IMG/VR virus record: IMGVR_UViG_3300040809_000936
Span: 1-40,510 of that record
From: a virus
Length of the DNA stretch: 40,510 nucleotides
Direction: 5' to 3' (one strand)
This document shows, one piece after another, positions 6,582-40,510 of this stretch. The notes under the pieces are model-generated. The model was not told the DNA's origin. It saw nothing but the letters and a program-made list of their open reading frames with translations, and searched no databases. The first letter of the stretch is position 1, and every line of letters begins with the position of its first letter. The translations under genes and the position numbers were made by a program.

Positions 6582-8333
6582 ATGTGTGCTAAACAACATT
6601 TCGTTTACAAGATAAGCAATACTAACTTTAGAGTTATGCAGAACAATCTTTCTGTAAAACAAGAATTAACCTATCAGAATGTTGCTGATGGAACAACAAA
6701 TTCTTTGGCTTATGACAATAATAATTCAACTTTATTCTTTATTAAATCAGACTTAAAATTATATTACATACAATCTGGAGATACTGTGGCTACTGAAGTC
6801 TCTGGATTTACCTCTCCAACATATCAGCCAGGCAATGCGGCATACTATAATGGAGCAATATGGTATTTTGAATTTAATTCTAATGTTTTAGTTAAATTAA
6901 CATTATCTTATAGTCTAGGTGTTCCTTCTGTCGCAAGTAAAACTACTTACTCTGTTGGAAGTATGAGTTTACCAACAACAGGAACTGTTGGTGCAAACAC
7001 CAACACTTTTGGTGATATAACTATAGATAGTAATACTGGTACTTTGTATGCATATACAAGTAGAGGTCGTTTTTATTCTGTTGATCTGTCAAATCCTACA
7101 GCAGGATTTACTGAAATAGTTTCGTCTCCAGGAAATGATAGAACAGTAGGTCTTCAACTTGTATATAATGATTCTACAAATACTTTGTATGGACACAATC
7201 ATAAAACAGGCAATTGGTACACAATTAATACATCTACTGGAGCAAAAACAGACCTTTCTCTTAACACAGGATTATTTAGAGATTTAGCAGGAAACAGTAG
7301 CAGTGCCATGTATGGAAATGATGTAGACGGAAATATTTTTACGGTCAACATAACACAAAGCACTCCGACAACATTAGATCAATTCTTTCTACCTTCTGGA
7401 ACATTAACACTAGGAGCTAACAATTTTACTATAGGAGTACAAAGTATTAATCCAGACCAAAGGTATAGAATAGGAATACTTAATACAACATCAACCCCAT
7501 ATGTAAAAATAAATTGGGGTGATAAAACTTTGTCTAGTTTTGAAACCGAAGGTTATTATGAGCATGTTTACGAAGATTTAATAGCAGCAGACGTTCAAAT
7601 ACAAGGAGATTTAGGAGGAGGAGAACTAGTAATAGGAGGAAAACCAATACCTGTTTATACTACTGCTTGGGGTTCTGACTACCAAACATCTGAAATGACG
7701 AGAACTGCTGATAATATTTCTGGTTTAACTAATGTAAGCTCTGTAAAGTTTACAAACAATGTAAACTTAACAACTGTTCCTAGTGGTCTTTTTAATAATG
7801 TGGTATCGACTATAACAAATTTAGATAACGCTTTTGAAAATACTGGACTTACAGTTATTCCATCTGGGCTATTAACTAGCATGACAGGCGTAACATCGTA
7901 TGTCGCAACCTTTAGAGACTGTGATGACATAACAGCAGTCCCGATACCACTGCTAAATGTTCACACAGGAATTACAACAATGGCCAACTTTTTGGACTAT
8001 ACAGAAATCACTAATTATGATGCGTTTTTAGATTGGTTATATACTCAAGCCAATTCTATTAACCTACAAAATATTACATTAGGAGCATGTGGTAATACCA
8101 CTAGTAATTCTACAGGAGCAACAGCAAGATCAAACTTAATAAATAATTTAGGTTGGACTATTAACGATGGAAGTTGTGTAGGGGTTCCTCCAACAGCCAC
8201 TCCAGCAGTAACCCCAACAGCCACCCCAGCAGCAACCCCAACAGCCACCCCAGCAGCAACCCCAACAGCCACCCCAACTGGTAGCGGACCAACACCAACA
8301 GCAACAGGTGGATCAACACCTACGCCTTCGTAA
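6582..8333 (+). CDS. Large virion/surface protein: propeller-like module, LRR-like region, Pro-Thr tail
   Basis: This 583-residue protein has four parts. Residues about 35-270 form a beta-propeller-like module with repeated YDNNNSTLFFI and YNDSTNTLYGH type strands. Residues about 270-355 look PKD-like (VKINWGDKT). About 365-530 has BspA/DUF285-like leucine-rich spacing (NLTTVPSGLFNN, LTVIPSGLL). About 535-583 is a Thr-Pro-Ala repeat tail. The propeller module is shared with the C-terminus of the subtilase at 12874-15258. No signal peptide is visible, so it is most likely a virion-associated adhesin or decoration protein. A ribosome site AAGGA lies at 6566-6570. Confidence 0.7.
   Translation: MCAKQHFVYKISNTNFRVMQNNLSVKQELTYQNVADGTTNSLAYDNNNSTLFFIKSDLKLYYIQSGDTVATEVSGFTSPTYQPGNAAYYNGAIWYFEFNSNVLVKLTLSYSLGVPSVASKTTYSVGSMSLPTTGTVGANTNTFGDITIDSNTGTLYAYTSRGRFYSVDLSNPTAGFTEIVSSPGNDRTVGLQLVYNDSTNTLYGHNHKTGNWYTINTSTGAKTDLSLNTGLFRDLAGNSSSAMYGNDVDGNIFTVNITQSTPTTLDQFFLPSGTLTLGANNFTIGVQSINPDQRYRIGILNTTSTPYVKINWGDKTLSSFETEGYYEHVYEDLIAADVQIQGDLGGGELVIGGKPIPVYTTAWGSDYQTSEMTRTADNISGLTNVSSVKFTNNVNLTTVPSGLFNNVVSTITNLDNAFENTGLTVIPSGLLTSMTGVTSYVATFRDCDDITAVPIPLLNVHTGITTMANFLDYTEITNYDAFLDWLYTQANSINLQNITLGACGNTTSNSTGATARSNLINNLGWTINDGSCVGVPPTATPAVTPTATPAATPTATPAATPTATPTGSGPTPTATGGSTPTPS
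8190..8277 (+). repeat. 24-bp tandem repeat inside a coding region
   Basis: About 3.7 copies of a 24-bp unit begin at 8190, 8214, 8238 and 8262. Copies 2 and 3 are identical and copy 1 has two changes (T and T for C and C). Each unit encodes the octapeptide pattern T-A-T-P-A-A/V-T-P, so the reading frame is kept and copy number can change without a frameshift. It forms the flexible Pro-Thr-rich tail of the upstream surface protein. Confidence 0.9.
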
Positions 8334-12325: not shown

Positions 12326-12664
12326 ATGATTTTTGCAGATGCTGACACAACTAATGTAGTTATAAACTTTTGGCAAAGTCTGGCTACAACAGTTTTAGGA
12401 ATTGTTGTTACATTAATTGGATTTTGGGCTACGGTTGTTAGGCATATGGCAACAAGACAAGAGGTTTGTGACTTAATTAAAAATAGTAGTCCATATACCA
12501 GAGATAGGCAATATATTATGGAAAGACTAGCTATTAATAAAGAAATGCAAGAAGAACTATCTAATGCTCTTAAACATAATTCAGAAGTTATGAACGACCT
12601 TAAGGTTCAGATAGCAATTTTAGCAAATACCTTAGGCTCTCTTGAATCTCGAATGGAGAAATAA
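12326..12664 (+). CDS. Single-pass membrane protein with coiled coil
   Basis: This 112-residue protein has one membrane helix at about 17-38 (ATTVLGIVVTLIGFW core). A long charged helical region then reaches the end, with heptad-like spacing at about 60-110. It resembles small phage proteins of the spanin or holin-accessory type in layout only. It is the first gene after the terminator, with GGAG at 12314-12317. Membrane location is well supported by composition; function is not. Confidence 0.6.
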   Translation: MIFADADTTNVVINFWQSLATTVLGIVVTLIGFWATVVRHMATRQEVCDLIKNSSPYTRDRQYIMERLAINKEMQEELSNALKHNSEVMNDLKVQIAILANTLGSLESRMEK

Positions 12665-12665
12665 T

Positions 12666-12872
12666 ATGGAAAATATTAAAATTGGCTTATACGATCAAAA
12701 CAAAATCTTTTTTAATCAAACCGCAAACAGATTTGCATCTGCCTCATATGCGGAAGCAAAAGACTATAATTCTCAACCAAGTTCTTTTTCTCAAAATGAT
12801 CAAATACTAGATACAGATGTCAATTGGGGTATCTTAAGAGTATGTCTTCCTAACAATCCTTTTGAGGACTAA
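12666..12872 (+). CDS. Small hypothetical protein
   Basis: The protein has 68 residues from the ATG at 12666, chosen because GGAGAA at 12655-12660 is well spaced; an upstream in-frame TTG at 12642 would add 8 residues. It is polar, rich in Asn, Gln and Ser, with NWGILRVCLPNNPFED at the C-terminus. There is no recognisable domain. It lies directly before the subtilase gene, whose ribosome site is inside its last codons, so it may be a virion partner of that protein. Confidence 0.55.
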   Translation: MENIKIGLYDQNKIFFNQTANRFASASYAEAKDYNSQPSSFSQNDQILDTDVNWGILRVCLPNNPFED

Positions 12873-12873
12873 G

Positions 12874-15258
12874 ATGAAAAGATACGACGTTATTTTGAAT
12901 AACATTAAAGATAAACAAGAATTCCTAGACGACATGCAAAATGTGTCTCATAAATCTAATATTCCACATAGAGATTGTGAGTGTTTCAAGAAAAGACCAA
13001 CTAGTAAAATTAGTACTTTTTATTTAAGTGATGAAGAAGCGATAGCTTTAAAAAAAGATGATAGAATAAAGTCTGTTGAAGTTTCATTGCTAGACGAGCC
13101 GCAAGCTATTATAGGGACAATGGATAGTATACCAGTACCCAATATAGTCGGTCCATTACCTCCACAAGATTCTACTCCTAGCGATGTTCTTAATACATCT
13201 TCTTCTATAAATTTTAATGCTATAGATGATGCTAATATAATTGTGGTTGATAGCAATGTAGATTTTGACCATCCAGAATTTGATAAAATAGTTTATCCTC
13301 CTCCCCTAAATAGAAACAGAACAGGTTCACGATTTTCTAGTAGAGGAGTTCCTATTAACTGGCACGCTTATGATTCTATAATTGGTGGATTTCATCGGTC
13401 TCCATATAATTATGGTGTTCATGCTGGTAGACAAGATGCTTATCATGGTACACATGTTGCTAGTACAATAGCTGGAAATATAAATGGTTGGGCTAAAAAT
13501 TCTAATATTTTCTTTAAGTCATTTTATGACTATAATGAGGGAGATTCTGTATCAGATTACATTCGAGCGTTTCATAATAATGGATTAATTAATGGTACTC
13601 TTAGCACTAATGACTTATCAAGATATCCAGATTTACTTCCTGTAAATGGTACATATAATAGAACAAAAGCTACCATCACTAATCATAGTTGGGGTCATTG
13701 GTATGACCTAAGAAATATACCGATTAATGCTATTCACACAGTAATTTATCGCGGTAATACTTTTACTAGACCTCTTAATGGATGGGATTGGAGATTTTTT
13801 TGGTGGACACTAAAAATGATTGTGAATATAGACGCACAAGGAAGAGATACTTTATGGTTTCTGCCATTTTTAAACAATGCTGTTGATACAGAAATCCAAG
13901 AAATGATAGACGATGGAATTATATGTGTAGCTGCTGCTGGAAACACATTCTCCTATGTTGCTTCACCCGAAGATCAAGATTGGAATAATCGTATTATATT
14001 TGATGGGGACACCCCCAATTTACCGTTGAATATTAGAATCAATGATAATACATTATTTATACATAGAGGATCTTCTCCTGCAAATTCTTCTATTTGTGTT
14101 GGATCAATAGCGCCAGGAGATAGGAAAAGTATATTTAGTCATTTTGGTCCAGGTATAGATATTTATGCTCCAGGATCAAATATTACTGGTGCCGTTAATT
14201 TAAATAGAGATACTTTTAATTTTGATACTGTTGGATACCCAAGATACCAAGAATACAATGACCTATCTCAAGAATATGGATTAGCAAAATTAAATGGAAC
14301 TAGCATGGCTTGTCCTCAAGTGTGTGGAGTATTGTCTCTAGTTGCAGCAAATTCTGGAGTAGTATCCAATCCAGCAGATTTTGATCAAACAGCGGCAGAA
14401 AACTGGCTAAATAATACTGGTTCTTTACCCACTATAAATGATCCAAGTCCTATAACAGAAGGTATGGATGCCGATACAAAATGGCAGTGTCTAGAAGGAT
14501 CTCCTAACAGATATTTATATTACCCGTATGCTACTACAGAATTATCTAATGATAAATCAAATGCTTTAGCATATGATTATGATAATGATATGTTGTTTTA
14601 TATAGATACAGATCTTAGAATGTATTATTATGATGTGTCTGATATAGAAAATATACCAAGTCCACAATTGTTGAGTGGTTTTCAATCACCAACAGCACAA
14701 CCAGGAAATGCCGCATATTGGAATAATGGAATATGGTATTTTGAGTATAATTCTAATATTTTAGTTAGACTAACATTGTCTTATACTAATAATGTACCAT
14801 CTATATCTGATATTAGAAAATGGTATGTTTTAAATATGAATTTACCAACAACAGGAACTGTTGGTAATAATACAAACACTTTTGGAGATATAACAATAAC
14901 AAGTGCTGGAAAACTTATTGCTTGTACTAGTAGAGGAAGAATGTATAGTATTAATATCCTTCCAAGATTTGTAGTAGGAAGAAGCATAGGTAGCTTTGCT
15001 GAAATAAAATCTTCAGAAGGAAATGATAAAAGCGTAGGACTACAATTATCTTGGAACGACAGAGATAAAGTATTGTATGGTCATAATTTCAAAACTGGTA
15101 ATTGGTATATTGTTAATGAAAATAATGGATCAAAAACATCTATCAATATAGCATCAGACAGAAAATATAGAGACCTAGCTGGCAATTCAAATATAGTGCA
15201 TGGTATTGACGAAAATGGAAATCTAGACATATTAAATATGCAATTTTTATTACCGTAA
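12874..15258 (+). CDS. Subtilisin-like serine protease (S8) with C-terminal propeller module
   Basis: The protein has 794 residues from the ATG at 12874 (GAGGA at 12864-12868). Residues 1 to about 75 look like an I9-type prodomain (YLSDEEAIALKKDDRIKSVE). The catalytic triad is D126 in VVDSNVDFDHPEF, H191 in HGTHVAST and S477 in NGTSMACPQ, with oxyanion N357 in AAAGN. Residues from about 549 to the end repeat the propeller-like module of the protein at 6582-8333. There is no signal peptide, so it is probably carried on the virion. Likely roles are cleavage of host surface proteins at entry or maturation of virion fibres. Large virion subtilases are known in T4-like marine phages. Confidence 0.9.
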   Translation: MKRYDVILNNIKDKQEFLDDMQNVSHKSNIPHRDCECFKKRPTSKISTFYLSDEEAIALKKDDRIKSVEVSLLDEPQAIIGTMDSIPVPNIVGPLPPQDSTPSDVLNTSSSINFNAIDDANIIVVDSNVDFDHPEFDKIVYPPPLNRNRTGSRFSSRGVPINWHAYDSIIGGFHRSPYNYGVHAGRQDAYHGTHVASTIAGNINGWAKNSNIFFKSFYDYNEGDSVSDYIRAFHNNGLINGTLSTNDLSRYPDLLPVNGTYNRTKATITNHSWGHWYDLRNIPINAIHTVIYRGNTFTRPLNGWDWRFFWWTLKMIVNIDAQGRDTLWFLPFLNNAVDTEIQEMIDDGIICVAAAGNTFSYVASPEDQDWNNRIIFDGDTPNLPLNIRINDNTLFIHRGSSPANSSICVGSIAPGDRKSIFSHFGPGIDIYAPGSNITGAVNLNRDTFNFDTVGYPRYQEYNDLSQEYGLAKLNGTSMACPQVCGVLSLVAANSGVVSNPADFDQTAAENWLNNTGSLPTINDPSPITEGMDADTKWQCLEGSPNRYLYYPYATTELSNDKSNALAYDYDNDMLFYIDTDLRMYYYDVSDIENIPSPQLLSGFQSPTAQPGNAAYWNNGIWYFEYNSNILVRLTLSYTNNVPSISDIRKWYVLNMNLPTTGTVGNNTNTFGDITITSAGKLIACTSRGRMYSINILPRFVVGRSIGSFAEIKSSEGNDKSVGLQLSWNDRDKVLYGHNFKTGNWYIVNENNGSKTSINIASDRKYRDLAGNSNIVHGIDENGNLDILNMQFLLP

Positions 15259-15272
15259 CATGGAGTTAAATA

Positions 15273-16844
15273 ATGGGTAGAAATGACGTTATAAAATTCA
15301 AAAGAGGTACAGCAGCAGATTGGACTTCTTTAAATCTCGTATTAAGAGTAGGTGAGCCAGGATTTGAAACCGATACTGGTAAATTAAAAATTGGTGACGG
15401 AACTACTGCATGGAATAGCTTAGTCTATTTAACAGATGTAGAAGGAGCCCCTGTTACAATAGAGAATGTAGACGATAGAGTTAGTGAGTTATTAGCAGCT
15501 GGTCCTTTTATTGGTCTAGAATATGATGACGATGGTGGTATATTGACTATTAGTGGTACTGGAATTGGACCAAGCGGACACAATCATGTTCTCAATGATA
15601 TTGTAGATTTTGATGGTTCCTTAACTACTAGTCTTGTAGGAAAATCTGGTATTGGAATAACATACGATTCAGTAAATGATGAATTAGTTGTTGTTTATAC
15701 AGGAGTAACTGGAGGTCCGACAGAACTAGATCAATTAACAGACGTCAGTATTAATCTTCCTCAGGTTGGTCAGGTTTTAAAATATGACGGTAATGATTGG
15801 ATAAATGGTACTGATAATTCTGGTGGGTCAATCAGTAGTCCTGTTGTTATTGATAGCATAACTATTGAAGATAATGTTGTAAGAAACAATAATACTGTAA
15901 CGTCAGAAAAAGATTTAGTATTAAAACCATACACAGGTGGTTCTTTAGTTACGACAAATAATGCTTTTACAAATCCTTTTACCGTTCCTTCTGGCACAAG
16001 AGGATGGTATGCAATAGATTTACAACAATTTAGAACGGAAGTTCATCAAATAGCAGCAGGAAATTATAGTTGCATACCAGGAGGATCAAATAACACTGCC
16101 AGTGGAGATCATTCTTATTGTATGGGTGCTGGCAATACTGTTTTTTCAGATCATGGTGGTATTCTAGCAGGCTTGAATAATACAATACAAATAAACTCAG
16201 ATAATTCTGTTATTTGTGGAGGAACAGTAAACATCATACAAAGCGGATCGACAGAAGGAGTCATAGTTGGTGGTCGAAACAATGTTTTGGCTAGTGGGTC
16301 TTTGGATAGTTGTATAATCAATGGAGATTATCATAAAGTAGATGCGAATTATTCGACTATTGTAGGTGGTCGTTATGGTTTAGCAACAATGTATGGTGAA
16401 ATAGCACATGCTACGCAACCACAAGCCGCTCAAAATCGTGGAGGCATTCAACATAGCGTGGTACTTGCTTCTTCTAGACAAAGCTCTGGATCAAAAGAAG
16501 AATTATTTTTAGACGGATCATCTAACAGTGAGAGAATCACTATTCCATTAGATACCTCTTGGCATTTTGATATCAATATTACAGCAAAAGGATACGGCAC
16601 TTCTGATGCTGGTTGGTGGAAATTTACTGGAGGTATTGTTAATACTGGAGGAACTGTGACTCAAATAGGTACTGTCACACAGTTAGGATATGGTATTAAT
16701 GGTACAAATTTTACACAAAATGATATTACTATTAGTGCTGATAATACTAACAAATCTTTAAAAATAGAAGCTACAGACCCAGGTGGCTTTGCTACATATT
16801 ATTCTGCAACTGTAAATATTACGCAATGTAAGCTTAGTACATAG
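15273..16844 (+). CDS. Trimeric tail fibre / receptor-binding protein
   Basis: This 523-residue protein begins with the tail-fibre N-terminal motif KFKRGTAADWTSLN, then LRVGEPGFETDTGKLKIGDG (25-44), as in Mtd_N or hyaluronidase-type phage fibres, where it attaches to the baseplate. The middle (about 250-380) has repeated short strands (GGSNNTASGDHSYCMGAGN, VGGRNNVLASGS) like YadA head repeats, which form trimeric beta-rolls. The last 120 residues, rich in aromatic and Thr residues (SDAGWWKFTG), form a candidate tip. It directly follows the subtilase gene. Its role is host recognition. Confidence 0.85.
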   Translation: MGRNDVIKFKRGTAADWTSLNLVLRVGEPGFETDTGKLKIGDGTTAWNSLVYLTDVEGAPVTIENVDDRVSELLAAGPFIGLEYDDDGGILTISGTGIGPSGHNHVLNDIVDFDGSLTTSLVGKSGIGITYDSVNDELVVVYTGVTGGPTELDQLTDVSINLPQVGQVLKYDGNDWINGTDNSGGSISSPVVIDSITIEDNVVRNNNTVTSEKDLVLKPYTGGSLVTTNNAFTNPFTVPSGTRGWYAIDLQQFRTEVHQIAAGNYSCIPGGSNNTASGDHSYCMGAGNTVFSDHGGILAGLNNTIQINSDNSVICGGTVNIIQSGSTEGVIVGGRNNVLASGSLDSCIINGDYHKVDANYSTIVGGRYGLATMYGEIAHATQPQAAQNRGGIQHSVVLASSRQSSGSKEELFLDGSSNSERITIPLDTSWHFDINITAKGYGTSDAGWWKFTGGIVNTGGTVTQIGTVTQLGYGINGTNFTQNDITISADNTNKSLKIEATDPGGFATYYSATVNITQCKLST

Positions 16845-16899: not shown

Positions 16900-17112
16900 A
16901 TGGCTGTAGAGATTAGACTTATGAGAAGTGGGCAACCTATTGTACACGGAAGTTGTGTAGTTAGTTGTACTCCAGTTGGTGAGTATTCTACATTAAAAAC
17001 TAATGTTGTTAATACTCCTACCATTGCTGAGATACAAGAAAAATATGATGATAGATTTGATAACCCAGGTTATTATTATGGTGGCGGGGCAGACGGTGGA
17101 AGCATACAGTAG
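16900..17112 (+). CDS. Small hypothetical protein, Gly/Tyr-rich tail
   Basis: This 70-residue protein has three parts: a beta-rich start with two cysteines (GSCVVSCTPVG), a short helical stretch (IAEIQEKYDDRF) and a Gly/Tyr-rich end (GYYYGGGADGG). No family is recognised. It follows the tail fibre gene after a 55-bp gap containing TTGGTGTAT (16845-16853), the same 9-mer seen before 11718. It may be a small virion or fibre accessory protein. Confidence 0.55.
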   Translation: MAVEIRLMRSGQPIVHGSCVVSCTPVGEYSTLKTNVVNTPTIAEIQEKYDDRFDNPGYYYGGGADGGSIQ

Positions 17113-17120
17113 AGACTTAA

Positions 17121-17597
17121 ATGAAACCTAACTATAAAACGAGTGAATTTTGGTTTACTCTTGTAAGCTTTATTATTAGTGGTATGTTTTTATTAGGTGT
17201 TATTACAGATAATGATTATAAAGATGAATTAATTGATACGATAACACACGCTGTTGAGAGTTGCATATTATTAAGTGGACAAGCTATTATTTTGTTCAGA
17301 TATATTAATAGCAGAAAAGAACAGAGAATAGAAAATGAAAAAACTAAGAGAAAACAAATAGATCATTTAGAACAAGAACTAGAAGAATATGTAGACATCG
17401 AAAATCAAATAATTAATATTAACACAGCAAATGTTGGACAACTCATTAAACTCCCACATATAGGACCAGCAACAGCAAAAAAAATTATTGATTACAGGAA
17501 TAAAAACGGTAAATTTCTACATACAAAAGAACTGATTAGAATTAATGGAGTAGGTCAATCAACGTATAAGGATATTGAACAGTACATAACTTTATGA
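17121..17597 (+). CDS. Fusion of two-helix holin-like membrane domain and ComEA-type HhH domain
   Basis: In this 158-residue protein, residues 9-30 (EFWFTLVSFIISGMFLLGVI) and 45-62 (VESCILLSGQAIILFRYI) are membrane helices. The N-terminal KTSEFWFTLVS is typical of small phage holin-like proteins. Residues 63-95 form a charged, probably coiled helix. Residues 100-157 are a tandem helix-hairpin-helix of the ComEA kind, with NINTANVGQLIKLPHIGPAT then KIIDYRNKNGKF and IRINGVGQSTYKDI. In ComEA this domain binds double-stranded DNA at the membrane during transformation. The fusion could tether DNA to the membrane, control lysis or take part in DNA entry. The domain calls are firm and the function is open. 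Confidence 0.8.
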   Translation: MKPNYKTSEFWFTLVSFIISGMFLLGVITDNDYKDELIDTITHAVESCILLSGQAIILFRYINSRKEQRIENEKTKRKQIDHLEQELEEYVDIENQIININTANVGQLIKLPHIGPATAKKIIDYRNKNGKFLHTKELIRINGVGQSTYKDIEQYITL

Positions 17598-17607
17598 GAT
17601 TTATATA

Positions 17608-18009
17608 ATGGACACTAAAAATAGTGAAGAATTAATAACAAAAGAATTTGAAACACTAAAGTTAAATACTCAAAAACTGTTGCCGGAAATCAAAAAAATA
17701 GCCATTGATGAAGCATGGAAGTTGCTTCAGATTACTCTTGCGTCTATTATACAAATAATAGAAAACATCGGAAATGACTTAAGTGGACCAGAAAAAAAGA
17801 AACTAGCCTTAAGTTTAATCAGCAATTTTTATGATACTACTTTTGATATTATCGACGTACCATATGTTCCAAATATTTTGGAGTCTTATGTTCATAAATA
17901 TGTCAAAAGATTTCTTATGATATTAGTGAGTTCTAGTATAGATAGTATGGTTACTATATTTAGAAGCACAGGGGTTTTTCTTAAAAAAACAATAGAGGTT
18001 ACAAAATGA
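17608..18009 (+). CDS. Helical hypothetical protein, possibly membrane-associated
   Basis: This 133-residue, almost wholly helical protein has long amphipathic stretches (WKLLQITLASIIQIIENIGN; FLMILVSSSIDSMVTIF). The C-terminal helix (about 104-121) is hydrophobic enough to lie on or in a membrane. No family is recognised. It sits in a run of short membrane protein genes between the HhH fusion and the papain-like protease, and overlaps the next gene by 4 bp. Confidence 0.55.
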   Translation: MDTKNSEELITKEFETLKLNTQKLLPEIKKIAIDEAWKLLQITLASIIQIIENIGNDLSGPEKKKLALSLISNFYDTTFDIIDVPYVPNILESYVHKYVKRFLMILVSSSIDSMVTIFRSTGVFLKKTIEVTK

Positions 18010-18392
18010 ATTATACACAAAGTTTCGAGGAATTTTCTGCATCTTTAGGACCAACAGATTTAGCTTTATATGCAGGAGCAGGAATCATATTATATGTTTT
18101 ATTTAAAGATAAACTAAGTCCTGTACAGAAGATGATAGTTGATACATTTAACGACTTAAAGAAATCAGTAAACCGTTCTGAAAATGTAGTAACAGTAAAA
18201 GTTCCAATGCCAGATTTACCAAAAGTATCTTCTAAAAAACAAGATGTTTTTTTTGAATTAGTAGCTTCATGGAAACAGACAAGAGACCTTTCTGTTAAAT
18301 CTAACTGTAATAAAGCTACTGAATTATTAGATGAAACATTTCAATATTTATCACCAAATGTTTGTGATGGAAAAGAAGGAGACGTTCAATGA
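18006..18392 (+). CDS. Single-pass membrane protein
   Basis: This 128-residue protein has one hydrophobic helix at about 18-34 (LALYAGAGIILYVLF). A soluble part then holds a Pro/Val segment (VKVPMPDLPKVS) and a helical region with two cysteines (C100 and C119). It is coupled to its neighbours by 4-bp overlaps. The layout suits a small envelope protein acting with the genes around it; no family is recognised. Confidence 0.55.
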   Translation: MNYTQSFEEFSASLGPTDLALYAGAGIILYVLFKDKLSPVQKMIVDTFNDLKKSVNRSENVVTVKVPMPDLPKVSSKKQDVFFELVASWKQTRDLSVKSNCNKATELLDETFQYLSPNVCDGKEGDVQ

Positions 18393-18889
18393 GCAATAAC
18401 AAGAAAATTGTCCTAGCACTAGGTGCTGTATTAATTTTGGTGGGTTTGTTTAAACCAAATTTGGGTAGTCTCTTACCAAAACCTTCTCCAGTTTCACCAA
18501 CACCTTCGGTAGAAATTTTAGAACCAAACGACCCAACTCTTAAAGAAGATGCTTTAAAAGTTGCAGAAATCATATCTTCTGGAACAGATAAGAAGGTTGA
18601 TGGAGTTGCTTTATCAGAACTATATACCGACATTGCTCTGTTAATTAGTTTAGACGAAGACAACACGGTAGTAAAAACAACTAGTGAAATAAGAGAAGTT
18701 AATAGTGTAGCCGGTAGTCTTATGAACCTAAAATTAAAAGGTAAATATCCAGGCTTAACAGAGGCAGCGGAAACATTAGTTTCTAATGTATTAGGTAAAG
18801 ATATTTCATCTCTTAATCAAGAAAATAGAAAGAAGGCAGTTGATGCTTTCAATGCCTTGGCATGGGGTTGTTATGAAGGGTCTAAGTAG
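18389..18889 (+). CDS. N-terminally anchored membrane protein
   Basis: This 166-residue protein has a hydrophobic N-terminal helix at about 5-21 (KIVLALGAVLILVGLF), then a Pro-rich spacer (PKPSPVSPTPS) and a helical domain of about 120 residues. The order suggests an inner-membrane anchor with an exported domain. AAGGAG precedes the ATG. No family is recognised. The following HNH gene starts inside its final 17 bp. Confidence 0.55.
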   Translation: MSNNKKIVLALGAVLILVGLFKPNLGSLLPKPSPVSPTPSVEILEPNDPTLKEDALKVAEIISSGTDKKVDGVALSELYTDIALLISLDEDNTVVKTTSEIREVNSVAGSLMNLKLKGKYPGLTEAAETLVSNVLGKDISSLNQENRKKAVDAFNALAWGCYEGSK

Positions 18890-19376
18890 TACTCGCATTT
18901 GTTATAAATGTAAAAAACAAAAAGAATTCAATGAGTTTAACAAAGATAAAAGTAAAGTTCTTGGTATAGAATATATTTGTAGAGAATGTAAACGACAAAG
19001 AGACAAAGACTGGTATAAACGAAGACCTCATGTTCGTTTAAATTACCATAACAAGAAATATAAAGAAGACCCATTGTATAGGCTTCAATGTATTGTAAGA
19101 AACAATGTAACAAGATATTTAAAAAATGGTAAAAATAAAAAAACAGAACAAATTATTGGATGCACATGGTTAGAATTCCAAGACCATATAGAAAAACAAT
19201 TTACAGAAGGAATGACTTGGGATAATCAAGGTAGTTGGCATCTTGATCATATAATACCACTAGCATCTGCGAACACAGAAGAAGAAATATATAAGTTGAA
19301 TCATTATACAAATTTTCAACCTCTTTGGGCTGAAGACAATTACAAAAAAGGTAGTAAAATATTATGGCAAGATTAA
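18873..19376 (+). CDS. HNH endonuclease with zinc fingers
   Basis: The protein has 167 residues from the ATG at 18873; a longer TTG start at 18840 would overlap the previous gene by 50 bp and is less likely. The N-terminus has C10-x2-C13 and a second CRECK pair, a zinc ribbon. The catalytic part reads HLDHIIPLASA, then LNHYTNFQPLWAEDN and a basic KKGSK end. This type is usual for phage HNH homing endonucleases. It interrupts a run of membrane genes, which fits later insertion of a mobile nuclease. Confidence 0.85.
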   Translation: MKGLSSTRICYKCKKQKEFNEFNKDKSKVLGIEYICRECKRQRDKDWYKRRPHVRLNYHNKKYKEDPLYRLQCIVRNNVTRYLKNGKNKKTEQIIGCTWLEFQDHIEKQFTEGMTWDNQGSWHLDHIIPLASANTEEEIYKLNHYTNFQPLWAEDNYKKGSKILWQD

Positions 19377-20293
19377 CATCAGAACAATTGTATGAAGATT
19401 ATAGAAAAGGATTAATGGGAACATTATGGGAAGAACATGTTTTCCAAGAATTAATTGATGTTTCTAAATATCCGTATTTTGCAGACGCTTCTAGTAAAAT
19501 ACAAGATAGTGGCAAAGGAAAATTATCCTTACCATTTAAAAGTGTCTTGAACTTTGACAAACAAGCATATTCCGAACGACAAACTACAGGAGATTGTGTA
19601 AGTCACTCAACTCGTAACGCTGTAGATTTAAGTCGTGCTGTAGAGATTGACATAAAAGGAGACAGAGAAGGTTGGCATGCCCGTGGTGCTACTGAAGCAA
19701 TATATGGTTGTCGTGGTCATAGCGGCCAAGGAATGAGTTGTTCTAGAGCAGCAACATTTGTTAGTAAAACTGGGGGAATTCTATTAAGAAAAAATTATCC
19801 AGGTTTAGTTGATTTAAGTAAGTATAAGAGTAGTATTGGCACAAATTGGGGAAGTCGTGGTGTCCCTTATAATGTAGTTGACGAAGCCAATGACCATCAA
19901 GTAAAAACTGTTTCACTTGTTACCAGCGTAGAAGAAGCGAGGGATGCTATAGCCAATGGGTATGGTTTAAGTGTATGTTCTGGTTATGGGTTCAGTCGTA
20001 CTAGAGACAGTAAGGGTATTTCTCGTAGAAGTGGTTCATGGGCACATGCGATGGCATGGATAGCTTGTGATGATACTCATAAGAGATTCAAAGAAACATT
20101 ATTTCTAGTCCAAAATAGTTGGGGTAAATGGAATAGTGGGCCGAAAGTTCACGACCAACCAGACGGAAGTTTTTGGATTAGAGAAAAAGATGCAGCAGGG
20201 ATGTTAAGCGGTAGAGGTTCTTATGCTTTTAGTAATGTAAACGGATTTCCTCCTCAAAAGCTACCAGATTATGGGTTTGTAGATTATCTATAA
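19364..20293 (+). CDS. Papain-like cysteine protease (C1 family)
   Basis: This 309-residue protein carries the papain catalytic set: Q73 and C78 in RQTTGDCVSHSTRN, H228 in GSWAHAMAWIA and N251 in FLVQNSWGKW. There is no recognisable signal peptide or prodomain, and the first 60 residues are probably an adaptor. C1 proteases cut proteins; some papain-fold relatives in phages cut peptidoglycan cross-links. It sits among small membrane proteins in a segment with no ordinary endolysin, so a lysis or envelope-opening role is a fair inference. A virion protease is the alternative. Confidence 0.85.
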   Translation: MARLTSEQLYEDYRKGLMGTLWEEHVFQELIDVSKYPYFADASSKIQDSGKGKLSLPFKSVLNFDKQAYSERQTTGDCVSHSTRNAVDLSRAVEIDIKGDREGWHARGATEAIYGCRGHSGQGMSCSRAATFVSKTGGILLRKNYPGLVDLSKYKSSIGTNWGSRGVPYNVVDEANDHQVKTVSLVTSVEEARDAIANGYGLSVCSGYGFSRTRDSKGISRRSGSWAHAMAWIACDDTHKRFKETLFLVQNSWGKWNSGPKVHDQPDGSFWIREKDAAGMLSGRGSYAFSNVNGFPPQKLPDYGFVDYL

Positions 20294-20307: not shown

Positions 20308-20478
20308 ATGAAATTTTTAGATAAAATAGCATTAAACAGACTAATTAAAACATTGCTGGACTTTCTGCTAAAAATATTAGAAATGTTTAACCCAAACAAA
20401 GATAAAGATCCGGAAGTTAAACCAGACAGAAAACCTATTTTACCGTGGAGAAGGAAAAAAAATGAAAAACCTGATTAG
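20308..20478 (+). CDS. Small basic amphipathic protein
   Basis: This 56-residue ORF opens with an AAGGAAA site at 20294-20300 and ATG at 20308. The first 28 residues form an amphipathic Leu/Ile/Lys helix (FLDKIALNRLIKTLLDFLLK). The rest is a Pro- and Lys-rich basic tail (PEVKPDRKPILPWRRKK). It could bind a membrane surface. It overlaps the following gene by 17 bp. Spacing, ribosome site and lack of another gene in this gap support it as real. Confidence 0.6.
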   Translation: MKFLDKIALNRLIKTLLDFLLKILEMFNPNKDKDPEVKPDRKPILPWRRKKNEKPD

Positions 20479-20782
20479 TATTCTGATTTTGACTGTAATG
20501 ACTGGTGTAGTCGTTGGTGAACTACAACCTTCTTCTACAAGCTCTGTAAGCCTTATAGGAGGGGTAATTAAAGCTAGAAGGGTTGCGGATCAAGATTCTA
20601 AATACCCTCGCAAAGACTGCCCTGTTTGCGAAGGTAAAGGATGGTATATAAGCGGAGACGGTATTGAAAAAGTTGATTGTGGATATTGCGAAGAGACAAA
20701 GGAAGAACCAACAGAACATCAAGTAGATGAACCAGAACTAGTACCTGTAATCGCTCCGCCAAAAGAATTTATACTGAGGTAA
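20462..20782 (+). CDS. Secreted small protein with DnaJ-type zinc motif
   Basis: This 106-residue protein has an N-terminal signal peptide (MKNLISILILTVMTGVVVGE) with likely cleavage near residues 19-22. CPVCEGKGWYISGDG and a later CGYCE form a CxxCxGxG plus CxxC pair, as in one half of the DnaJ zinc-finger repeat. An acidic Pro-rich tail follows. It should be exported. A single half-zinc module outside a chaperone may be a protein-protein contact. It belongs to the envelope gene group. Confidence 0.65.
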   Translation: MKNLISILILTVMTGVVVGELQPSSTSSVSLIGGVIKARRVADQDSKYPRKDCPVCEGKGWYISGDGIEKVDCGYCEETKEEPTEHQVDEPELVPVIAPPKEFILR

Positions 20783-35427: not shown

Positions 35428-36446
35428 TAATAACATACCTTAGAAGCTCAAGCTACGGAACACACAATATGTGTGAACAACAATACTTTATTGAGTATAA
35501 CTTAGGCTTAAGATCTCCGTCTAATCAAAAAGCCGACAAAGGAACTATAGTTCATAAAGTTATGGAAATATTAGCAGATATTTCTGTGGCAGTATCTAAA
35601 GGTCAGCCAACTATTGAGGACGAGATCTGTGGTGAAATTAATGTATTTGATCATAATGTTGAAAAAATCACTGATCAAGTTTATGAATATTATACTAGTA
35701 GATTTATCCATCATCAATGGAAGCCATTAGATCTTAAACATTGCAAGAAATGGGTTGAAAAAACTATAACTGTGCAAAACTGTAATTTTGATCCTAGAAA
35801 TCAAAATATCATACAACCAGAACAAAGATTTGATATTGAAATTAAAAAACCTTGGGCTCACTATAAATATAGTGAAGACTTAGAAGGTTATTTAGCAATC
35901 AAAGGAACAATAGATCTGATTGCTCAACCTAACCCCAATACGATTGAGATTATTGATTACAAAACTGGCAAAAGGTTGGATTGGGCTACAGGAGAAGAAA
36001 AAACTTTCAAAAAACTGGAAAAAGATCCTCAACTCCGCATGTATCACTATGCGGCAAGTGTGCTGTATCCCGAAATAGAACATGTTATTGTTAGTATTTA
36101 TTTTATTAATGATGGCGGTATTTTTAGCATGAATTACAATAAGAGTCAGATTCATGAAACCGAAGACATGATTCGTAGAAAATTTCAAGAAATTAAAAGC
36201 TGTACCAGACCAAGATTGAACAAAACTTGGAAGTGTAGTAAATTGTGTCATTTTGGGAAAAATTATTTTCCAAATCCAGAGATTGAATATAGAGATGGTC
36301 AAAGAACACCTCACGGTCTTCCTATGACAATATGTGAAGAAATAAAATACAGTATAGACCTTTTGGGAATGAAAGGAACAGTTGACAAGTATCAGCAAGA
36401 AGGCTATAATGTTGGAAAGTACAAAGCGCCTGGAACCACAGAATGA
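35424..36446 (+). CDS. RecB/Cas4-like PD-(D/E)XK exonuclease with four cysteines
   Basis: This 340-residue protein has the RecB-nuclease order: SSYGTHNMCEQQYFIEYNLG at the start, KGTIVHKVME, IKGTIDLIAQ with D164, and IEIIDYKTG with D178 and K180, then QLRMYHYAA. One cysteine near the N-terminus (C17) and three late ones (C271, C275, C304) match the layout of the 4Fe-4S cluster in Cas4 and AddB nucleases. It likely resects DNA ends for recombination or degrades host DNA. It is coupled to the kinase and polymerase genes. Confidence 0.82.
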   Translation: MIITYLRSSSYGTHNMCEQQYFIEYNLGLRSPSNQKADKGTIVHKVMEILADISVAVSKGQPTIEDEICGEINVFDHNVEKITDQVYEYYTSRFIHHQWKPLDLKHCKKWVEKTITVQNCNFDPRNQNIIQPEQRFDIEIKKPWAHYKYSEDLEGYLAIKGTIDLIAQPNPNTIEIIDYKTGKRLDWATGEEKTFKKLEKDPQLRMYHYAASVLYPEIEHVIVSIYFINDGGIFSMNYNKSQIHETEDMIRRKFQEIKSCTRPRLNKTWKCSKLCHFGKNYFPNPEIEYRDGQRTPHGLPMTICEEIKYSIDLLGMKGTVDKYQQEGYNVGKYKAPGTTE

Positions 36447-38323
36447 AGAAATATATACCATTACATTGTCATAGTCATTACAGTCTATTAGATGGTTTAA
36501 GTCAACCTAAACATATTGCTAAAAGAATTAATTCTATTGAAGCCAATGCTTGTGCTTTGACAGATCATGGTAATATAGCTGGTCACGTTCAATTTCATAG
36601 CACAATGAAAAAGAATGGCATCAAACCTATTCTTGGTTGTGAACTTTATGTTTGTGAAGACGATCCTTCTATAAAAACTAAAGAAAATAGTTCATTGAGT
36701 CACATGCTTGTGCTTGCTAAAAATTATAATGGTTGGCTTAATCTTATTCAGCTTGTCAGTGAATCTAACAAACCAGATTTTTTCTACCATAAACCGAGGT
36801 TAGATCTTGAAACATTATCAAATTTCGTTAAAAACAATCTTATATGTATTACTGGTCATCTTGGCTCTACCCTTTCTAATGCAATTTGTAGAGACAATAA
36901 GATTATTAGTGACTATTCAAATATTGGAGTTGCCTATGTAGATAGGCTCAAAGAAGCATTTGGTAAGGAAAATGTTTTCTTAGAATCACAACTCATGGAC
37001 CAAGAAAATAATCCTATTCAAAAAGAACTTTCTGGTGCTATTGAGGAGATTGCCCATAAATGTGGAGTAAAAGTAATCTGTACTCCAGACGCACATTACG
37101 CTAATAGAGAAGATGCAGACGATCAGAGAATACTTCTCTGTAACAATCTTAAAACTACTATGCCTGAAATTAGCAGGAAATTAAGTGTGGGAGAAAAAGT
37201 TCCTGTAGAATGTTTCTTTTCTTCCAATAATTTTCACATACTGTCACAAGAAGAAATCAATGAGCTTCATAAAGAAGAACACATTGAAAATACTAATCTT
37301 GTAAATGAAATGATAGAAGATTATGAGATCAACAGCAAACCAAAGCTTCCTCCGTTTAATTGTCCAGAAAATTATGATCCAGACGAATACTTGCGTCAGT
37401 TATGTAGAGACGGATGGAAACAAAAAATACAAGGTAAAGTAGATGTTTCTTTACACGGAAGTTATACGGATAGGATTAAATACGAGCTTAAAATTCTGCA
37501 AGGAGCGGGACTTTCGAGCTACTTTCTAATTGTTCAGGATATTGTGAATCATGTCAAAGAAAACAAATGGTTGCCTGGACCCGGTAGAGGAAGTGCTGCT
37601 GGGTGTCTCGTATCGTACCTTGTCGGCATTACTAGCATTGATCCCATTAAGTATAGCCTGTTATTTGACAGGTTCTACAACGCTGGTCGTAATACTGCTG
37701 ACCACATATCTATGCCTGATATTGACGTTGATGTCCCTATTGACAAAAGAGAAGAAATCATAGAATACATCAAGAATAAATATGGAAATGACAAGGTTAG
37801 TCAGATGATTACCTTTAATACTATCAAAGGAAGAGGAGCATTAAAGGATGTTTTAAGAGCTTATGGGAATGTTAGTTTTGAAGAAATGAATAAAATTACA
37901 AAGAATATTCCAGATGAAGCTAAAATTGCAGACGAACTTCAACAAATGAAAGATGACACTGGAGAAGCGTCAATTATTAGATGGGCTTTAGAAAACAACC
38001 CAGAAAAACTTAAGGAGTGGTGCTATATTGACGATAAAAATATAATGCAAGGTCCTTTGTCAAAAAGGTTTGAGCAGGCTATTAGATTAGAAGGAACTAA
38101 GTCTAATCAAAGTAAACATGCTGCAGGAATTGCTATTGGTGCAAACCCTTTAAAAGAAGTTTGTCCTATGATTTATGATTCAAAAAATAAACAAATGATT
38201 GCCGGTATGGAAATGCAAGACTTAGAGAGTATTGGTGTTATAAAATTTGACATTTTGGGTATCGCAATGCTTGATAAAATTATGACAGTTCAACATTTAC
38301 TACAAGAAGGAGTTATACAATGA
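36443..38323 (+). CDS. dnaE: DNA polymerase III alpha-like protein, ending after the palm domain
   Basis: This 626-residue protein has a PHP domain (HCHSHYSLLDG, LTDHGN, TPDAHYANREDADDQ) with its metal ligands. The palm has GPGRGSAAGCLVSYL, PDIDVDV (425-431; D426 and D428 match the first catalytic pair) and VIKFDILGIAML (D603, the third aspartate). It stops 20 residues later, whereas bacterial DnaE continues for about 500 residues with fingers, HhH and OB domains. No continuation is present in this window. It may be half of a split polymerase or a shortened enzyme. An epsilon-like exonuclease lies close downstream. Confidence 0.9.
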   Translation: MKKYIPLHCHSHYSLLDGLSQPKHIAKRINSIEANACALTDHGNIAGHVQFHSTMKKNGIKPILGCELYVCEDDPSIKTKENSSLSHMLVLAKNYNGWLNLIQLVSESNKPDFFYHKPRLDLETLSNFVKNNLICITGHLGSTLSNAICRDNKIISDYSNIGVAYVDRLKEAFGKENVFLESQLMDQENNPIQKELSGAIEEIAHKCGVKVICTPDAHYANREDADDQRILLCNNLKTTMPEISRKLSVGEKVPVECFFSSNNFHILSQEEINELHKEEHIENTNLVNEMIEDYEINSKPKLPPFNCPENYDPDEYLRQLCRDGWKQKIQGKVDVSLHGSYTDRIKYELKILQGAGLSSYFLIVQDIVNHVKENKWLPGPGRGSAAGCLVSYLVGITSIDPIKYSLLFDRFYNAGRNTADHISMPDIDVDVPIDKREEIIEYIKNKYGNDKVSQMITFNTIKGRGALKDVLRAYGNVSFEEMNKITKNIPDEAKIADELQQMKDDTGEASIIRWALENNPEKLKEWCYIDDKNIMQGPLSKRFEQAIRLEGTKSNQSKHAAGIAIGANPLKEVCPMIYDSKNKQMIAGMEMQDLESIGVIKFDILGIAMLDKIMTVQHLLQEGVIQ

Positions 38324-39700: not shown

Positions 39701-40510
39701 ATGAAGAAAAAAGGTTTTACTCTCGTTGAACTATTGGTTGTTATTGCTATTATTGGTGTTCTTGTTGGTCTTCTTCTTCCAGCAGTACAATCCGCTAGAG
39801 AAGCCGCAAGACGAGCAAATTGCATGAGCAATATGCGTCAGTTTGGTTTGGCCGCACACAATGTGGAAAATAGCACTCAAAAGTTTCCAGCAGCATGTTG
39901 GACTATTGATACTATTGATCCATCTATAACCCCAATTGCTCCTTCAGATAATAGAGCAAGAACAGAGCGATCGTGGAGAGTTGATCTTTTATCATACATG
40001 GAAGAATCAGCACTAGCAGATACTTATGATAAGAATTTACATTGGTGGGAAGGTCCAAACCTTTTTGTAGCACAACAACAAGTCAAAGTATTTCAGTGTC
40101 CTTCTAATACTTACAATGGAGAAGAGTGGACTAATTTTCCAGACGGCCCATCAAGAGACAGTGACTCTACTGCACCAGCACTAAACACTGGTGTGCCTTT
40201 TGGCCGTACAGACTATGAAGTATTTACTGGAGTAAAGAATAAGGTTCTTGATCCAGATCCATATGCTAACAAGGGACCAGAAGCAGATGGTGCGTTGATT
40301 AAGGACCGTGTTACTACTATGGGTCAATTTAGAGATGGAACAAGCAAGACTTTTCTTGTAGCAGAATGTGCATCGAGACCAACTTGGGTTAAGGGTACTC
40401 CAGCACAGGTTGTTCCAGATGTTATTAATCAGTGTCTTGGTTGGGCAGATAGCCTTGGTCCATTTAAGCTTCATCCTATTGATGCTAATGGAGATAAAGG
40501 TGCTGCTAGA
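39701..40510 (+). CDS. DUF1559-family prepilin-like protein (3' end beyond window)
   Basis: The frame stays open for 270 residues to the window edge. The N-terminus [18 protein letters not shown] is a type IV prepilin signal: cleavage after G5, with Glu at mature position 5. It is followed by [20 protein letters not shown], the usual DUF1559 (SBP_bac_10) entry. [19 protein letters not shown] and the later [15 protein letters not shown] are also typical. These proteins are present in many copies in Planctomycetota and very rarely elsewhere; function is poorly known, probably secreted or pseudopilus-related. By rough hand count of single lines, GC is about 40-48% against about 30% just upstream, a sign of recent transfer or of a junction with host DNA. 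Confidence 0.9.

Follow-up and report, generated by a model that had tools for sequence, protein, structure and literature searches.

Lysine 164 of ComEA is essential for transformation in B. subtilis, the equivalent K166A substitution in the G. stearothermophilus protein abolishes the DNA shift, and contacts through the backbone are typical of DNA binding by HhH domains (PMC9747964). What is known of the timing of phage lysis comes mostly from a small number of model phages. A DNA signal has been proposed for T4, in which the antiholin RI is a precedent for DNA signalling lysis to a holin system (PMC8385771). In phi29, p16.7 is an integral membrane protein that contacts viral DNA (PMC4974454).

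Here we describe a phage gene that joins a two-helix membrane domain to an HhH domain of the ComEA fold. The window, i.e. the whole stretch of DNA that was analysed, is an entire IMG/VR record of 40,510 bases. It also encodes RNR, a DNA polymerase III alpha-type protein, a glycosyltransferase-like protein and tail-fibre proteins.

The fusion gene and its product

The gene and the parts of its product are as follows.

17121..17597, + strand: whole fusion gene, two-helix membrane domain, charged helix and HhH domain, 158 aa (translation; 28 distinct homologues of equal architecture)
17142..17210, + strand: membrane helix 1, spanning residues ~8-30 and carrying KPxY[KR]TSEFWFTxVSF, the signature of the family (hydropathy; invariant columns)
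17241..17306, + strand: membrane helix 2, of moderate hydrophobicity and spanning residues ~41-62; H43, E46, S47, G53 and Q54 are conserved (hydropathy; conserved columns)
17307..17405, + strand: charged helical linker, residues 63-95 (AlphaFold2 helix 31-88)
17406..17591, + strand: (HhH)2 domain, Pfam HHH_3, ComEA fold; first hairpin LPHIGP, with His replacing the usual first Gly (profile, PDB sequence and structure matches)

An earlier note, made from the letters of this DNA, had described two membrane helices with a holin-like start, joined through a charged helix to a "clean ComEA HhH". The overall architecture is borne out by hydropathy, by the AlphaFold2 model (helix 7-24, a single long helix 31-88, then the HhH at pLDDT ~90) and by a profile search that confirmed the C-terminal fold, residues 96-157 matching Pfam HHH_3 with E=1.9e-18 and 66.8 bits (cut-off 27). 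Among PDB sequences the HhH part matches ComE operon protein 1 (8dss, E=2e-9; 8dfk, E=9e-9), and in a structure search its model fits the solved ComEA folds 8dss and 2duy with rmsd values of 1.3 Å and 0.6 Å, respectively. By a rough NG86 estimate, the HhH part is under purifying selection (median dN/dS 0.32). Since 28 distinct full-length homologues keep the architecture and the HhH is under such selection, 17121-17597 is not a chance ORF.

The two finer labels of the note stood only in part. The fold is that of ComEA, as the matches to 8dss and 2duy indicate, but the DNA-binding lysines of ComEA are not retained. All 28 phage domains have T, L or I at the position of ComEA K164 (position 118); in the 17 domains compared for the other lysines, K193 is lost in all, K197 in 16, and K199 is missing in 10 and kept in 7. 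The first hairpin Gly is replaced by His in 25 of the 28 domains. Known HhH domains face the DNA with their hairpins. In the 28 phage domains no surface is more conserved than hairpin 1 (L-I-x-L-P-x-I-G-P), and a Lys one turn further on is kept in 23 of them. The net charge of the HhH varies from -6 to +5 and is neutral to acidic in most members; ComEA domains themselves have a net charge of about -2. Backbone contacts to DNA could survive despite the loss of the lysines. HhH domains without a role in DNA binding exist, and PsbU and GspK-type proteins were among the profile and PDB matches.

As to the "holin-like" start, no holin family matched the membrane domain significantly, the best matches being Pfam Phage_holin_1 (E=0.075) and phrog_297 (E=0.058), and the N-terminal part had no significant match in PHROGs or Pfam. 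By sequence alone the label is weak; indirect support comes from the context, with a holin-like next gene and tail-fibre genes upstream. The 158-aa protein is predicted to display the trait of two-helix holins and antiholins (small, two membrane helices, N-in/C-in), albeit with a helix 2 that is moderately hydrophobic. A K/R-rich segment, predicted to be cytoplasmic by the positive-inside rule, directly follows this helix. All 62 homologues have a positively charged N-terminus, positive charge following helix 2 and an acidic loop, and the same rule predicts both termini to be cytoplasmic in 62 of 62.

Distribution and gene block

An alignment search with the membrane domain across 2.9 million viral contigs identified 227 viral loci, of which the best 80 were read, and the domain is thus more widely spread than its fusion to the HhH. 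Searching with the HhH part only gave 32 loci, and each of the 26 distinct proteins read had the family membrane domain in front. The earlier note had named the fusion as one not known from any standard phage family and suggested looking for it in other viruses. Full-length fusions are present in at least 28 distinct genes on uncultivated viral contigs, all in one slot. Neither the membrane domain nor the fusion was found in 50,697 public phage records, and an HhH on the tail of a two-helix membrane protein has no parallel in PHROGs or INPHARED. The HhH matches in INPHARED cover the HhH part only and belong to short unannotated records or to records annotated as competence or DNA-uptake proteins. 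A literature search for the membrane-HhH fusion, and for a ComEA-type phage protein with a holin, returned nothing relevant. Together with the lack of a significant N-terminal match in PHROGs and Pfam, these searches support the view that the fusion is not known from annotated phage families. Host contamination or a captured host comEA was ruled out by the 28 distinct fusions in one phage block; capture is also contradicted by the HHH_3 counts, with exactly one domain per HhH-plus record and none in any of 12 records without the HhH, which reach 232 kb in length.

The gene order around the two-helix (2TM) gene is near-invariant across ~75 loci: 2TM gene, a helical protein of 127-159 aa, two successive one-helix (1TM) proteins, and a papain-like protein of ~308 aa. 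In almost all of these loci the order is the same with either type of tail described below. The corresponding genes and their neighbours in the window are the following.

12326..12664, + strand: cluster 8, one-helix coiled-coil protein with weak matches to phrog_1625 ("bacteriocin production or immunity")
15273..16844, + strand: tail-fibre-type gene (Mtd_N, PHROG tail fibre), upstream of the block
16900..17112, + strand: small ORF ending in GGGADGGSIQ, close upstream of the fusion gene; cluster 9 in many loci
17608..18009, + strand: next gene, cluster 1, 133 aa, helical, with weak holin-family matches
18006..18392, + strand: cluster 0, conserved one-helix membrane protein, part of the block
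18389..18889, + strand: cluster 2, conserved protein with an N-terminal membrane anchor, part of the block
19364..20293, + strand: papain-like cysteine protease, cluster 3, 309 aa, with invariant C78, H228 and N251-S-W-G; candidate lysin

Matches of the next-gene family (cluster 1) are weak throughout: phrog_6918 in 7 of 19 members (best 3e-4), phrog_608 (1e-3) and Pfam Phage_holin_6_1 in 4 of 19 members (2.8e-3). The papain-like family (cluster 3) has 80% mean column identity. Peptidase_C1 matches of its members are sub-threshold, a sequence profile gave no match in PDB, and the model has structural matches to cathepsins and calpains that are supportive only, as its N-terminal half is of low confidence. 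Nine large relatives lack Amidase_2, SLT, Peptidase_M15_3 and Phage_lysozyme, four classical lysin families, which leaves the papain-like gene as a possible lysin. The tail-fibre genes upstream, the holin-like next gene and the papain-like gene downstream suggest that the block resembles a lysis cassette.

Several other genes of the window deserve mention. An HNH-endonuclease-like ORF, recognized by eye (18840-19376, +), lies between the cluster 2 and papain-like genes and splits the block at a point where nearly all other loci show no break; it is possibly a mobile or homing gene. In the same block, 20462-20782 (+; cluster 4, also present in relatives) encodes a small conserved protein that looks exported and has a CxxCxGxG...CGYC motif resembling the DnaJ zinc centre. 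A subtilase-type protein is encoded at 12862-15258 (+; Peptidase_S8, E=2e-19), and its C-terminal part resembles, by eye, the first half of the 6582-8333 (+) protein. The product of the DNA polymerase III alpha gene (36443-38323, +) is just 626 aa long and contains PHP and NTPase domains. Its C-terminal part is missing from the window; the gene may be split or its remainder encoded elsewhere.

A DUF1559/N_methyl prepilin gene is found at 39701-40510 (+; PF07596, E=2.3e-35), and DUF1559 prepilin genes occur in 7 of 26 related records, including L085-L090. DUF1559 is apparently exclusive to the PVC superphylum according to a genome study (PMC4807772), and the prepilin genes hint at Planctomycetota as hosts. 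A search of GTDB genomes with the membrane domain returned only two contigs, one full match in a Flavobacteriales MAG and one weak match, and was uninformative on the host. The phage group, which is unrepresented in the public phage collection searched, may infect Planctomycetota, whose phages are little known.

Alternative tails and overprinting

A point absent from the earlier note is that the HhH is optional, and that most orthologues have an overprinted basic tail instead. Among HhH-less members, the next gene was located in 40 distinct cases, and in every one of them the 2TM gene overlaps it by 29-161 nt (median 89) and in the same frame; in most of these members the overprinted tail is a basic, K/R/S/T/N-rich end. 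In HhH members the overlap ranges from -15 to +17 nt (17 measured). Start-codon choice does not account for the overlap: even if the next gene is taken to begin at its last possible start, 29-146 nt of overlap remain in HhH-less members, and the distances from the stop to a conserved motif in the next gene are disjoint between the groups (80 to 148 nt versus -52 to 65 nt).

The tails were compared with synonymous re-codings of the next gene. The HhH-less tails have 28.9 open codons against a mean of 11.0 under re-coding, HhH members show no excess openness (6.4 versus 6.6 codons), and the tail charge, given an open frame, is +8.4 where +4.0 would be expected (p<0.05 in 23 of 34), all of which are indications and not exact probabilities because related sequences are not independent. 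The idea that the basic tail results passively from translation running on into the next gene is unsupported, with both openness and charge above the re-coding expectation. Because the tail is open for longer and is more basic than re-coding predicts, the HhH and the overprinted basic tail can be regarded as alternative modules.

Five sister genes of the window gene (L004-L006, L027 and L028) carry neither an HhH nor a clearly basic tail, so neither type is essential everywhere. On a tree of four neighbouring genes, HhH presence requires five changes, of which at least four are forced by well-supported branches, and the module has therefore been gained or lost repeatedly. The overprinted basic tail, found in L029-L082 at the start of the gene after the 2TM gene, is a candidate case of overlapping-gene origin. 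More generally, a folded domain that alternates with an overlapping-gene tail at one locus bears on both the origin and the loss of overlapping genes.

Possible functions and comparison with known systems

Our preferred reading is tentative, and we give it somewhat less than an even chance: the 2TM gene may encode a holin/antiholin-type inner-membrane protein whose exchangeable cytoplasmic tail docks nucleic acid and, with the next-gene product, places or times permeabilisation. It would be a lineage-specific inner-membrane protein of a lysis-type block, with two helices and both ends in the cytoplasm. The docking module would be the tail, which is (HhH)2 in the window phage and the relatives that carry the fusion; in most of the remaining relatives it is the overprinted basic tail. 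This module would most likely bind nucleic acid loosely and with no preference for any sequence. Together with the holin-like next-gene product, the protein would act as a holin/antiholin-type component; held at, or responding to, DNA under the membrane, it could determine where or when the membrane is permeabilised. Gene context and the weak profile matches point to the lysis role, and the HhH fold and its replacement by a basic tail point to docking. The main argument for the latter is that basic disordered tails and the HhH share one plausible ligand, nucleic acid; an influence on the timing of permeabilisation we likewise infer. Against the lysis part stand the lack of a significant holin-family match for the membrane domain, the weakness of the neighbour matches and a lysin that is only a candidate. 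Ordinary holins often have basic tails, which counts against docking.

It is also conceivable, although unlikely, that the protein is a DNA-sensing lysis regulator, held by its HhH or overprinted basic tail on unpackaged phage or host DNA, so that two unrelated and repeatedly exchanged tails do one job. If so, lysis would be linked to DNA state in the infected cell. A DNA-binding-type fold and an overprinted basic tail in one slot form a natural domain-swap series for asking whether lysis proteins read DNA.

The HhH may instead be a protein-interaction or oligomerisation module that docks another phage protein, for example the next-gene product, and takes the place of the charge-based basic tail. 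Such a role for the domain is nearly as likely as DNA docking, albeit doubtful when taken as the full explanation. The missing ComEA lysines and the replacement of the first hairpin Gly by His favour it and, with the variable HhH charge, weigh against our preferred reading; it also accords with a domain that is neutral to acidic in most members, with HHH_3-fold proteins such as PsbU and the GspK type that act without DNA, and with the strict adjacency of the next gene. However, the most conserved surface is hairpin 1, on the DNA-facing side of known HhH domains, 23 of 28 domains keep the Lys one turn further on, and ComEA domains are likewise slightly acidic. A membrane tether for phage DNA or for the replication or packaging machinery, working outside lysis in the manner of phi29 p16.7, would make sense of an HhH or basic tail, predicted to be cytoplasmic, on a membrane anchor, and with p16.7 there is already one phage membrane protein known to recruit viral DNA (PMC4974454). 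We consider this improbable, as the gene sits among tail-fibre and holin-like genes, away from the replication genes at 25-39 kb, and the ComEA lysines are lacking.

There is only a slim chance that the protein is an ordinary holin with an unimportant hydrophilic tail and the HhH a neutral acquisition. Size, two helices, basic C-terminus and location would all fit, and some relatives lack both tails, but the HhH is under purifying selection (dN/dS ~0.32) and recurs across the tree, and the openness and basicity of the other tail exceed what the overlapped gene imposes. The earlier note had suggested, besides tethering of replication to the membrane, that the protein could guide incoming phage DNA or block uptake of other DNA, which would be a ComEA-like function with an outward-facing HhH. 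The ComEA fold speaks for it, as does T4 RI, a phage protein believed to sense periplasmic DNA. Yet uptake or exclusion of outside DNA is disfavoured because both ends are predicted to be cytoplasmic, the opposite of ComEA; the C-terminus is predicted inside in 62 of 62 homologues, and T, L or I stands in place of the essential ComEA lysine in 28 of 28 domains. On the predicted topology and the absent lysine this was dropped as the leading idea, and we regard it as very improbable.

Among viral proteins, ComEA-like HhH proteins of the same fold occur in the giant viruses Indivirus, Klosneuvirus, Hyperionvirus and Yasminevirus (BFVD matches of the model), but those of Indivirus, Klosneuvirus and Hyperionvirus belong to eukaryotic viruses, are 224-343 aa long, and match over the HhH part only. 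T4 RI is periplasmic and, as far as known, unrelated, whereas the phage domain described here is predicted to be cytoplasmic and has an HhH fold. The phi29 protein p16.7 functions in a replication context, in contrast to the late, lysis-like context of the 2TM-HhH gene; its DNA-binding fold presumably differs from the HhH, and a PDB fold search with the whole protein model gave no p16.7-like match. With class II-type two-helix holins and antiholins the protein shares its small size, two helices, a predicted N-in/C-in topology, a charged C-terminal tail and tail-fibre and holin-like neighbours; it differs in lacking a significant family match and in an HhH tail that has no counterpart in the phage collections searched. 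With ComEA (ComE operon protein 1) of Bacillus and Geobacillus it shares a C-terminal HHH_3 (HhH)2 of the same fold and an N-terminal membrane anchor. ComEA has one helix, an HhH outside the cell and an oligomerisation domain (PMC9747964), whereas the phage protein has two helices and an HhH predicted to lie inside, in which K164 and K193 are lost from every domain compared and K197 from 16 of 17.
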